Below, piece by piece: positions 21,738 to 48,306 of a stretch of DNA of 64,000 nt. Each line of letters starts with the position of its first letter. Positions within the stretch are counted from its first letter, which is position 1. The stretch is from NCBI RefSeq assembly GCF_021917145.1, contig NW_025813700.1, positions 558,001-622,000 on the forward strand, given 5' to 3'. The DNA comes from Hypomesus transpacificus (Eukaryota; Chordata; Actinopteri; Osmeriformes; Osmeridae). The notes beneath the pieces are model-generated. The model made no database searches and was not told the origin of the DNA. It saw only the letters and a program-made list of their open reading frames with translations. Made by a program: the position numbers and the translations under genes.

Positions 21738-37526
<15,789 letters not shown>

Positions 37527-41400: not shown

Positions 41401-44400
41401 AAAAAACACAAATCAACACAAAACAAAGATGGCCGCTTGACGAACGTTTGAGCCGAACGCACAAAACTCGAGGGGACTTGTTTCTCAAACCGTCTAGTGA
41501 CTCTGGCCACCCACCGTACTGTGTGATGAAGCCGAGACACCGGTCCACGATGACGGGGACATCCGTGCCGGTCAGTTGTTGCTGGTCCAGGGGTCCGTCA
41601 CCCCTCCCAGCCCCCTGCTGGAGGCTGTTCGCCCAGCCGGGGAAGTCAGCCCTCCGGTCCCCCTCCAAACGCAAAGTCCTGCCTCTATCCACCAGCACCA
41701 CAGGCCCGGGCTCCGGCTGCACGCCTGAGACCACAATCAGACCCACACCATCACTTACACTGCTGGGGTTTTTTTTTTCTGTGTCACATGACCACCAAGA
41801 CTACCCCGCCCCCTCCTGTGACTCACAGAGTTCCTGTAGTTTGCGCAGGTCGATGCTCTCTGGTCTGTCGGTGCCGTGGAGGAGGACGAGGAGGGTCGAG
41901 CCCCCCGCCGCCACCCAGCAGGCTCGAGGGCAGTGTGGGTTGGGCCCCTCGGTGTAGCGGAGCCTTCCCACCCTCTCGAAGGACCAGCTCGCCATACCCT
42001 CCGCCTCCGGGGGCACTATGGCCTGATGCACATGACGACACAGCGTCACTTTTGATTTCCTGGTCGTCCACCCGGTTACAGCACTGTGCCGAGCATTTCA
42101 TAGTGAATGTTTTGCTGTTGGTGAGTTTGGAACGAGCTTACCTTGGCGATGGTTTCGATCCACTGCTGCACTGAATCGGGAGTGTCGGCTCCAAACAGGT
42201 GTATTCGACCAGAGATTTGGTACAGCTCAAAGGTATGCAAGTAGCTGATTCGGGGTGAGTCAAAGAAGAACGAAAAGAGTTTAGGCTTCATGGGTTGAAC
42301 ACGATTTGTGTCCGTCCTGTTGGAAGAGGAGGGCTGGTGTTTTGTCCGTTGCTCCCCGACTCACCCATGTTTTCCTAAAGGATTGACCACGAGGCACTGG
42401 ACGTCACTCATCTTGATCTCTCCACATGGGTGCGCACGCTTCTCGCCGTCAAAGTATTTGAAGACGCCCTTGTCCAGAGTGCACCACCGTTGGCTGAAGT
42501 CTGCATAGCCCCGACACGGTGGACAACGTCGCATTGTCATTGATTTGACTTCAGATGTTTCACGTCAGTTGTCTTTTGCGCCGGGTCGGTAATGACTTTC
42601 AGCTGACAGTTAATTGTGTCAACGAACGTTACATTTACATTTTAGTCATTTAGCAGATGCTCTTATCCAGAGCGACTTACACTAAGTACAGGGACATTCC
42701 CCCCGAGGCAAGTAGGCTGAAATGCCTTCCCCAAGGACACAATGTTTTTTTTTGCGCATGGCCAGGAATCAAACCGGCAACCTTCTAATTAACAGCCCGA
42801 TTCCCTAACCGCTCAGCCATCTGACCCCCCGTGAACCGTCATACCTCCTTTTCCCTTGCGCTCCGTGACTGCTCGCGTCGTGGAGCCGATCTTGAACAAA
42901 ATCCCAGCGTGGGGGATCGGGACAGCAACCTGCGGAATGACCCGCTCTACGTCCTGAACCCCCGGAAACTCTGGATGAACGGACACAGTTAAAAAGTACG
43001 GACACAAAAAGTTCAGCTTTTTTCCGGAACAAAATCAGTTTTGCGTAACCATTTGAGGGACGTTGTGTTGCAGTGAAGGTTGTCGTCGGTTGGGGGTGAA
43101 TGGTAAACGTCCTGTCACCTGTATTGAGGTTATGAAAGAGGAACTCTTCTAGTAGTTTCCGCCCATAGTTCTGGGCTATGCACAGAGGGTTGGGCACATC
43201 TGGGTCTCCGGTGGAGCAGTTCACGTCAGCCCCGCAGAAGACCAATGACATTGTCTCTAGCAGGTCACCTGTTTGAACACTCTTGCACAGAGCCTGACAG
43301 AGCGAAGGGGGCAGAGAAGGGGCATAAGAAAAAAGGAATGATACTTGGGTAACGTTTGTAAAAATAGATATCATGGTGGTGGACAGAGAAACAGCAACTC
43401 ACTTTGTTGAGGTCTTCCTGACATCCAAACAGCCGGTGGTACTGTCTGTATTTTCTTTGGCAGTACTTGGTCTTGATGAAGTTTTGGCGTTCCTCATTGT
43501 TACTTGAAGGACGGATAGTTTCGCTTGGCGGAACGTTTGAGGCCCAGAACAGGTTGGAGCGGTCGTTGCCTAGCTGGACGAACACCTTTTGAATGAAAAG
43601 ATGGGACAGACATTGTCATTTCGACGGAAGGGAAATAGCTCACGTTCGTGAAAGCAGAAGTCGTCACAGTTGCAATATTGTGTTCATTCACAAAGGAAGT
43701 TACTTGTTCCCTTGTAGTAACAATGCTACTGGTCACTGCTACTGTACACTTGCAGGTGTCATGTGACTCCTCTTGACTATAAAATTATGTGAGGTGTGTG
43801 TCTACCTGAACAAGGCTGTCAGTCCACACCTTCTCATCCATCCTCAGACTGCGGACTTTAGATACACTCTGCCCAAGACTCCTATGCACTCCTAAATGTA
43901 TCCAAATGAAGATCGATTAGATACTGCAAAAGGTTCATCTATCGGCGGTAGATTAGTAATGCCTGATCTATGTCAGAGACGGCACGACGGCGATCAGCTT
44001 AAACTGGGATGTGTCGAGCGCCCAAATCCCTGTTGCTTAATTCCTGTTCTATTTACGGTGGTCCAGTACCTGCACAGCACTTGCAGATGACCACGCAAAG
44101 ATTGACAGACGCCCAGTCTGGGTCCTCGGCCCCACAGTCGGCACAGCGCCGGTTGGACTCCTCGACCCAGACGCTCCACACCACCGTGTCACTGGACAGA
44201 GAGCGGCCGATGCAGGCCTGCATGGCCTCCACCCACTCATCTCTCTGCTGCGTTGTCTCTGCCACAAAACTACAAAACGGGGTGCGGGTGATTAGCACTC
44301 GTGCGGATTCCCCCCTGACGTTGTAGGCTACAGTGCGTGGTGGGGACTGGACTGTGGGTCATGAGGAGGGCCCAAGGTCATTGCGTCTCACGGCTTGTAG

Positions 44401-46461
44401 CATGTGTCTCACCTGAACGGCTTGTAGCATGTGTCTCACCTGAACGGCTTGTAGCATGTGTCTCACCTGAACAGCTTGTAGCGTGTGTCTCACCTGAAGG
44501 GCTTGTAGCATGCGTCTCACCTGACGGGCTTGTAGCATGCGTCTCACCTGAAGGGCTTGTAGCATGTGTTGAGGCTGAAGGGCTTGTAGCATGCGTCTCA
44601 CCTGAAGGGCTTGTAGCATGCGTCTCACCTGAAGGGCTTGTAGCATGTGTTGAGGCTGAAGGCGCGTGGGTCGGTGCTCTTCACGCTGCCCATGTTCATG
44701 TCGATGGACGTGATGCCAATCCCTTGGCTGCGGTCCTGATGAGAAGATGTCATGTTAGAGATGAGGAGTTCCACAACGGTCTGTACCTAACCCATGAACG
44801 ACACTGAGATACCGAATAAAAGACATCAAGAGAACATGCAGCCATGTTAATGCTCCGTCGAGTTATGTTACAAATGAGGTTTATCAGTCTGTTGAAATCC
44901 AAGCATCAATGGATTTCATAAGAGGTGGGGTGGATATTTGAGCACTGCGTCTGAAACATGACATTTATATTTGTGTTTAGTGAACCATCCCGATGGAATA
45001 CCCAAACAAGTACCTCTGAGTTCAGGTAGAGGAACACTCTGTCTGCACTGACGACAATAAAAAGTTTGGAGCGGGACCCATTCATTTCCAGGTATCCTTG
45101 CTTCTCCCCGCGACTGTCCCCTCCCGCATCACTTAAGCTTGGAGAACGTGTCTTTCCGTTGGAGCAGAGCTGCTGGATGGTCTCTTTAAGGACTGCCACC
45201 CACTCGCCCCTGACGGCTAAAAATAATAATGATTAAATAATGATTACACACTTATGACAATAACAGTAGCGGTATTTTCTATTATTAGATTTCTGAGCAG
45301 AGGCCCTACCACTGTTCTCGGCACGGAACAAGAAAGTCCTGTTCTTCGTCACCACCTCAAACTTCTGTTCTCCGACGCTTAGCACATCGGCGATGGTTGA
45401 GACAGCGATGAATCGCTTCGAAAACACCTCCTGAGGAAAGAAGGGAGGAATACCGTGACAGATGCCGATTCATTTCACGGTCGTCAGTGTAAAATTGTGT
45501 CGTAAAAGATCATCCGCGCGACTGAACCTTTTCGTTTTGATAGTATCTCAGGAACTCTGCATCCAGCGTCACCCAGCGCTTTTGAAAGATCAGAGTCCTG
45601 CAAATAAGGCAAGGCTTTACTTTAATAACAGACAAGCCCACACAAGCACACAGGATGTCTTTCTTGGAGCTCTTGTTTCTCGCTTCCTCCCTTACCCCTT
45701 AGGCGGGGTCTTGTCCAGCCAACCCGTCTTAATGACAGGGGAGTGGGAAGAATACGGCTTCCCAGGATCCACAAGGCTGTGTGGACGAGTGCAGGAAATG
45801 TAGAGACTGCCCTCGTCAAAGGATGACCTACTCCTGAGAGTGGACAGAATCAAACATACTGCTACTATGTAGCTGTAGTCCAGAAACACAGAATGTACAA
45901 CAGAGCAGGGGCATTGTTAGACATCAAACTCTACTGGGGCACAGGCCCCTTTTTAAATCCCTTTTTTCTTTCAAGCTTGCTGCGCACAACGCACTACAAG
46001 GCTGTAGAAACTCCCCTTGCTTAACCCACTATACAACAGTTCAGGGACGCAAGTTTAGCTTTGGCAGGGACACTCATGCTGGGGCGTGTGCCCCCAGTAA
46101 AAAGGGTCTAACGACGCCCCTGCAACAGAGTTTCATATAAGCTTCTGTATTGAAAGTGAAAGACATGAGAGAACCATTGATCAACATACAAAAGCGGACA
46201 CGAATAAACAACATAGACAGACGCACCTGTTTCTGTGTGTGGACAGATCGCTGTCGGCGTCTTCAGAGTTGTTCATATTTACAGGCTCCTCCATACTCAT
46301 AAAACACTTCTGAAGTGCACGCAACTGGTCCACCTGTTAGAAAAGATAGCAAAGAAGAACAAATCTGAAATGTACAACTACCAATCGAATATCAACCCCT
46401 CGTTGTTAAGCGAATGTGCAAACGGTGACATTCTTCAGCCTCATGTTACCTTGCGCTCCAT
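38462..46461 (-). CDS. arap1: ARAP1: ArfGAP with RhoGAP, ankyrin repeat and PH domains (no SAM)
   Basis: A PI(3,4,5)P3-dependent Arf GAP and Rho GAP acting in endocytosis and actin control. 28 coding exons join in frame to 1127 aa: 46450-46461, 46227-46333, 45696-45833, 45528-45597, 45310-45430, 45014-45216, 44629-44735, 44070-44269, 43806-43891, 43403-43585, 43119-43293, 42845-42970, 42365-42500, 42142-42244, 41827-42022, 41515-41724, 41172-41387, 40910-41015, 40629-40776, 40465-40542, 40223-40288, 39838-39955, 39579-39692, 39256-39389, 38967-39049, 38804-38854, 38631-38694, 38462-38494. Order: PH1 (from about 73), PH2, ArfGAP zinc finger CADC-x16-CKCC (295-318) with HR after it, ankyrin region, PH3, PH4, RhoGAP with EGIYR arginine finger (Arg733), RA, PH5. 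The first coding exon is only MERK, and no N-terminal SAM domain was found. The pde2a neighbour and PH2 motif GIGIT.IDM support ARAP1. The donor of 44629-44735 sits in a minisatellite. Confidence 0.93.
40879..40896. repeat. G18 homopolymer (sense C18) after an arap1 donor
   Basis: It starts 12 nt beyond the donor of exon 40910-41015 in the transcript direction. Confidence 0.95.
42631..42829 (-). mobile_element. tRNA-derived SINE, copy 8
   Basis: Complete, with tail, conserved core and tRNA-like head. Its head ends about 15 bp before the arap1 exon at 42845. Confidence 0.88.
44391..44660. repeat. 27-bp x 10 minisatellite carrying repeated 5' splice sites
   Basis: Ten contiguous 27-bp units. 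The unit at 44634-44660 and the first 5 nt of the next are the real end of arap1 exon 44629-44735. In sense order the units are E-D-D-E-D-D-D-D-D-D. E is exon-like (CTCAACACATGCTACAAG). In D the matching part is GTGAGACGCATGC, so each D unit has a CAG|GTGAGA donor. Confidence 0.96.
45906..46122. mobile_element. hAT-type MITE, 217 bp, perfect target duplication
   Basis: Inverted ends CAGGGGCATTGTTAGAC and, on the other strand, CAGGGGCGTCGTTAGAC. Exact 8-bp duplications CAACAGAG lie on both sides (45898-45905 and 46123-46130). It lies in arap1 intron 2. Confidence 0.93.

Positions 46462-48306
<1,845 letters not shown>

Follow-up and report, generated by a model that had tools for sequence, protein, structure and literature searches.

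Tandem copies of a 5' splice site at a putative ARAP-family exon and at other coding exons of Hypomesus transpacificus

The stretch of DNA analyzed here (the window) comprises 64,000 nucleotides of the Hypomesus transpacificus genome (RefSeq assembly GCF_021917145.1, contig NW_025813700.1, positions 558,001 to 622,000). On its minus strand, a coding exon of a gene that we take, from its domains, to belong to the ARAP family ends in a minisatellite of 27-bp units that repeats the 5' splice site of the exon. We consider it probable that this is a border-straddling minisatellite whose first donor is the productive one, that it is close to neutral, and that it is one of a recurrent class.

The course of events that we propose would begin with the tandem duplication of a segment straddling the exon-intron border of the ARAP gene. 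The array would then have grown into the intron, one of the steps being the copying of a three-unit block. The spliceosome would now meet eight identical donors, the first of which (44629/44628) would make the functional mRNA; any later one would bring in a stop right after CYKPF-R, and such transcripts are expected, on general knowledge, to be degraded. The array would be tolerated as a near-neutral member of a class that recurs across the genome.

The donor array and its reading frame

Recounted on the minus strand, which is the sense strand, positions 44391-44660 hold ten units of exactly 27 bp each in the order E-D-D-E-D-D-D-D-D-D (unit types in Table 1), and CAG/GTGAGA (the slash marking the splice border) is present in eight of the ten, both as the initial annotation had reported. 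Tandem Repeats Finder (TRF) calls the array at 44392-44650 with a period of 27, 9.6 copies, 91% matches and a score of 418. The exon ends in GCCTTCAGCCTCAACACATGCTACAAGCCCTTCAG/GTGAGACGC, and the last exonic bases of the eight donors lie at 44629, 44602, 44548, 44521, 44494, 44467, 44440 and 44413. All eight donor 9-mers read CAGGTGAGA, a word that occurs 10 times on the minus strand of the window, eight of them inside the array and two elsewhere, with zero occurrences on its plus strand. A ninth GTGAGA in the array is preceded by GCC in place of CAG (last upstream base 44392), and this junction is probably the original start of the intron. On the plus strand, an open frame of 162 codons with LVACVSPE repeats (44319-44807) crosses the array antisense, probably as a side effect of its 27-bp periodicity.

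Minus-strand open reading frames (ORFs) around the array match ArfGap (E 2.7e-10) and RhoGAP (2.8e-10), with a second RhoGAP match just under the cut-off (4.2e-05). Four partial PH matches in these ORFs and in the peptide joined across the intron from donor 1 (E 0.0032-0.028) are all under the cut-off; the joined peptide itself gives ArfGap at E 8.2e-10 and PH at 0.028. No match to an ankyrin model was found at E 0.1 among 10 ORFs, each of which is a single exon or part of one. The ArfGAP and RhoGAP exons lie on one strand and presumably belong to one transcript.

The initial annotation was correct in stating that the ARAP frame stays open from the first donor alone. Spliced to the exon that starts at 44269, donor 1 is in phase and reads CYKPF-S-FVAETTQQRDEWVEAMQ, continuing the protein from PH to ArfGAP, whereas donors 2 to 8, seven in all, each give CYKPFR followed by an in-frame TGA.

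The unit sequences suggest how the array formed. D units are chimeras of an intron head, GTGAGAC, and the exon tail, with unit 2 repeating the last 19 bases of the exon tail exactly and 20 with one difference. The founding duplication would therefore seem to have taken in about 20 exon bases and 7 intron bases. Of the seven D units compared with the E sequence, five match it at 21 of 27 positions and the other two at 20 and 19. Within the 107-nt exon CTTCAG occurs twice, at offsets 74 and 101, a spacing of 27 nt that equals the array period, and this pair could have set the 27-bp slip. Since units 1 and 4 are identical and units 1-3 match units 4-6 at 80 of 81 positions, one three-unit block appears to have been copied late. 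The 81-bp step suggested in the initial annotation is accordingly seen once, with no sustained higher-order repeat, while its proposal that a 27-bp segment across the border was duplicated into competing donors is supported by unit structure, frames and unit identities.

Tandem arrays are often mis-sized in assemblies, and the true locus might hold one or a few units that were expanded or mis-sized in this one. We regard this as very unlikely: the units differ among themselves in the identity matrix, a genome search with the locus returned a single full-length match, and independent arrays of like kind occur at other genes.

Arrays of the same anatomy at other coding exons

The genome search with the ARAP locus also matched a second array, at a GCAP-like gene (L002 in Table 1). 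A wider search of the genome for three CAGGTRAG at short spacing returned 3397 triples (1782 + 1615) against 395 (146 + 249) for the reversed word, an 8.6-fold difference, compared with 2.06-fold for single sites (45,527 against 22,117). Searches with CAGGTAAG and CAGGTGAGT gave 330 matches against 52 reversed and 250 against 12 reversed, respectively. The scrambled word of equal composition, CAGTGRAG, formed 1507 triples and its reverse 908; minisatellites are therefore simply common in this genome and a preference for donors is unsupported, and we do not claim donors as a hotspot for arrays.

All distinct arrays among the matches listed were examined: 19 from CAGGTRAG, 10 new ones from CAGGTAAG and 20 from CAGGTGAGT, or 49 in total, with the groups at C8:643358 and C8:644262 counted as a single array. 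They come from the first contigs among those matches and are not a random sample. Ten of these 49 start at the donor of a recognizable coding exon. The largest exact-CAGGTRAG cluster can miss the true start of an array; when the 49 loci were all re-examined with TRF, RPB2 was the only addition. An 11th, that of the GCAP-like gene, was found by similarity, so that the set compared here holds 12 arrays: ARAP, L002 and the 10 of 49. Apart from the five left out in Table 1, no exon was recognized at the start of the remaining listed arrays by eye on three-frame translations, which is no proof of absence.

In all 12 arrays the unit has the intron head at its start and CAG at its end. The unit end is an exact copy of the last 7-21 exon bases in 10 of them; in the dynein pair the copied stretch is just 4 bases. 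Unit lengths range from 15 to 46 bp (27, 30, 15, 28, 40, 31, 46, 38, 26, 42, 41 and 29 bp). Selection for an in-frame unit length was rejected, as four of the 12 lengths are divisible by 3, which is about chance. Ten arrays of the 12 have a stop or a frameshift after every later donor (ARAP, L002, L038, L042, L045, L046, L047, L058, L071 and RPB2). RPB2 is the longest case, with 71 of 71 later units stopping or shifting the frame; its 72 units comprise 33 with GTAAG and 39 with GTAGG, the 62-residue exon peptide matches solved RPB2 at E 2.9e-34, and the exon after the array reads VLNRLTFASTLSHLRR. In the GCAP-like gene, where joined exons give EF-hand matches down to 2.3e-16, donor 1 alone stays open.

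Of the two dynein exons, that of L038 matches AAA_9 (2.7e-22). The L037 exon has no significant match, and we presume it to be dynein heavy chain from its neighbourhood. Adjoining this pair, L039 is an array in the opposite orientation. Another array, L064 (G000:C10:12782300-12786700), lies 13 nt from the edge of an apparent antisense exon, which we take to resemble cytochrome c haem lyase, just before the acceptor of that gene. In the window itself long GA/CT tracts are numerous (1534-1967, 25193-25365, 30636-30767, 31620-31772, 34445-34609 and 47256-47521).

Table 1. Features of the ARAP array in the window and arrays found elsewhere in the genome (numbers in scientific notation are E values)
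Feature	Position	Strand	Description
Putative ARAP-family coding exon, PH domain end	44629..44735	-	107 nt, open, preceded by CATCAG; peptide DRSQGIGITSIDMNMGSVKSTDPRAFSLNTCYKPF plus 2 nt, phase 2
Intron from donor 1	44270..44628	-	359 nt; 122 nt if counted from the ninth GTGAGA
TGCTAATC	44290..44297	-	upstream of acceptor GTTTTGTAG/TTTTGTG; read from the sequence and taken to be branch-point-like
Following coding exon, remainder of PH and start of ArfGAP zinc finger	44070..44269	-	3' end read by eye
Unit 1, E type	44629..44655	-	final 27 nt of the exon, stops at donor 1 CAG/GTGAGA
Units 2-3, D type	44575..44628	-	start GTGAGA, end TTCAG; donor after unit 2, second E unit after unit 3
Unit 4, second E type	44548..44574	-	27/27 identical to unit 1; within the block copy of units 1-3
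Units 5-9, D type	44413..44547	-	CAG/GTGAGA after each; donor of unit 9 opens the last, incomplete unit
Unit 10, D type without final 6 nt	44386..44412	-	runs into GCC/GTGAGACGCAATG, probable original intron start
L002, GCAP-like EF-hand gene	G000:C14:4833068-4836197	-	first recognized exon end plus eight CAG/GTGAGA donors, 30-bp units
L026, RNA polymerase II RPB2	G000:C1:2208500-2213000	-	exon end KKAHQARAGVSQ, then 72 tandem 29-bp CAG/GTARGAG units, then next RPB2 exon
L037 and L038, dynein heavy chain	G000:C2:598100-606500		two exons of one gene, 4.3 kb apart, donor array on each
L042, ubiquitin protease (USP)			3.8e-06
L045, MFS transporter, presumably SLC16-like			2.4e-09 for the joined exons from either side of the array; none for exon alone
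L046, ZNF512-like			5e-10 joined exons; 0.0075 exon alone
L047, FAM176/EVA1			1.5e-60 joined exons; none for exon alone
L058, HMG-CoA reductase (HMGCR)	G000:C7:9442800-9447500	-	nine tandem donors at the exon, unit of 26 bp; 7.1e-16 against solved chain, no Pfam match
L061, ST7	G000:C9:844800-849400	-	8.9e-16; exon with 42-bp units
L071, glucokinase-regulator-like (GCKR-like)			0.0012, under cut-off; identity helped by preceding exon
L049			left out of the 10; P/H/Q-rich open frame, uncertain
L044			left out of the 10; open frame without Pfam match
L070			left out of the 10; open frame without Pfam match
L036			left out of the 10; masked N upstream
L051, potassium-channel-like gene (Ion_trans_2 4.2e-10)	G000:C10:13397000-13401900	-	left out of the 10; 36-bp CAG/GTAAGG array begins 58 nt inside the intron, past an intact separate donor

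Choice among the donors

Productive use of the first donor and a near-neutral array have several observations to contend with. The U1 duplex energy is equal for all eight ARAP donors (-11.2 kcal/mol), and predicted folding gives the 9-mer an unpaired probability of 0.002 at donor 1 and 0.0015-0.018 at the others. Donor strength and accessibility are thereby rejected as reasons for a choice of donor 1, and the sequence holds no positive reason for it; that the first ARAP donor is the one used is what we infer. Two of the 12 arrays would also permit in-frame use of later donors: in ST7 (L061) all five stay open, each unit adding 14 residues, and the 29 later donors of L037 are mixed, with nine open, four shifting the frame and 16 giving a stop. 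These points all weigh against the proposed account. In its favour, the genes that carry such arrays, RPB2 for one, are conserved, and in most of them the protein stays intact only from donor 1, so that this donor is presumably used enough.

Exon-side signals or the order of transcription are the likely causes of a preference for donor 1. One study reports that SRSF1 favours intron-proximal donors and hnRNP A1 intron-distal ones, and that use of the intron-distal member of a competing donor pair is suppressed when SRSF1 binds immediately upstream of the two (PMC5585400). Given these effects, the splicing outcome in such arrays is not obvious in advance and is worth measuring.

Copy number might instead tune the output of the ARAP gene as a selected, functional rheostat, more donors meaning more late use, premature stops, decay and less protein. 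The seven later donors, with their equal match to U1 and a TGA after every one, would suit such a device, as would the identity of all eight 9-mers. That identity is weak evidence, however, as there are few changes among the units, and the like arrays on unrelated genes, with many unit lengths, suit a mutational cause. With 11 further exon donors of like anatomy and mostly non-productive later donors, the array has the look of something that a genome rich in minisatellites produces incidentally, which argues against special tuning, and we judge such a rheostat improbable.

A different possibility is that the array corrects itself, the insert left by a later donor being spliced a second time to the correct product. 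Inserts from donor 1 to the later donors read GT...AG throughout the 11 arrays other than RPB2, and a second chance of this kind would help to explain how RPB2 tolerates 72 donor-like units. GT...AG ends are automatic, however, once an AG/GT border has been duplicated. The usual size of vertebrate introns exceeds the shorter ARAP inserts (27 nt upward), and inspection of the ARAP unit, by eye only, turned up neither a branch point nor a pyrimidine tract of good quality. Second-chance splicing is in our judgement unlikely.

Returning to the border-straddling, near-neutral array with a productive first donor, we put forward tentatively, as something that may well not hold, that the genome contains dozens or more donor-straddling minisatellites, some in essential genes, in which the first donor, beside the exonic signals, wins outright or wrong choices are re-spliced. 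This number is extrapolated from the 10 of 49 arrays among the matches listed and is not a count. If the proposal is right, the arrays would serve as natural experiments showing that an intron-proximal donor does not have to be favoured over identical ones. How one of several equal 5' splice sites is chosen has usually been investigated in minigenes that hold a few of them; in this genome, coding exons carry arrays of 3 to 72 almost identical donor-like sites, and for 10 of the 12 arrays splicing from any donor after the first would spoil the protein. The arrays would also illustrate one route of intron lengthening, by capture of exon-tail and donor sequence.

Comparison with known systems

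Tandem repeats at or near splice sites have been described in several other settings. In human genes within segmental duplications, repeats with units of about 30 bp on average alter splicing at exon-intron boundaries (PMC2812944); in the available text of that report they form novel introns in recent paralogs, whereas in ARAP the donor of an existing intron was multiplied and only the first copy keeps the frame. Introns 1 and 3 of the gilthead sea bream growth hormone gene hold tandem repeats of variable copy number (cited in PMC3045353). As summarized there, these resemble the ARAP array in being tandem, intronic and in a fish gene; the passages on them mention no donors. Intron gain through DNA repeat expansion in Cryptococcus (PMC2395259) likewise involves duplicated splice-signal sequence that alters gene structure, but, as far as the accessible account goes, whole introns were multiplied rather than a donor only. 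In Caenorhabditis elegans, minisatellites near alternative splicing regions are associated with splicing choices (PMC4039745); the visible portion of that paper places the minisatellite within introns with regulatory motifs and does not describe it as repeating a donor, as the ARAP units do. Our literature search, which covered titles and the starts of abstracts among the matches listed and few subscription papers, turned up no account of a genome with numerous donor-repeating arrays.

The minisatellite of human IFI6 (6-16) has a 12-bp unit, against 27 bp in the ARAP array. In IFI6, as the accessible text has it, an exon-end minisatellite repeats the donor, and two downstream units are used as donors, giving three mRNA species (PMC4526556). 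The ARAP array is alike in consisting of tandem units with a consensus 5' splice site (eight of ten) that begin where a coding exon ends. It is unlike in that all seven later donors give an immediate stop, whereas those of IFI6 give different isoforms in that account (PMC4526556); by its open frames, the ST7 array would be a better candidate than ARAP for isoforms of the IFI6 kind. A donor-repeating minisatellite is thus already known from IFI6, and the ARAP array differs from it by the stop predicted after every later donor.

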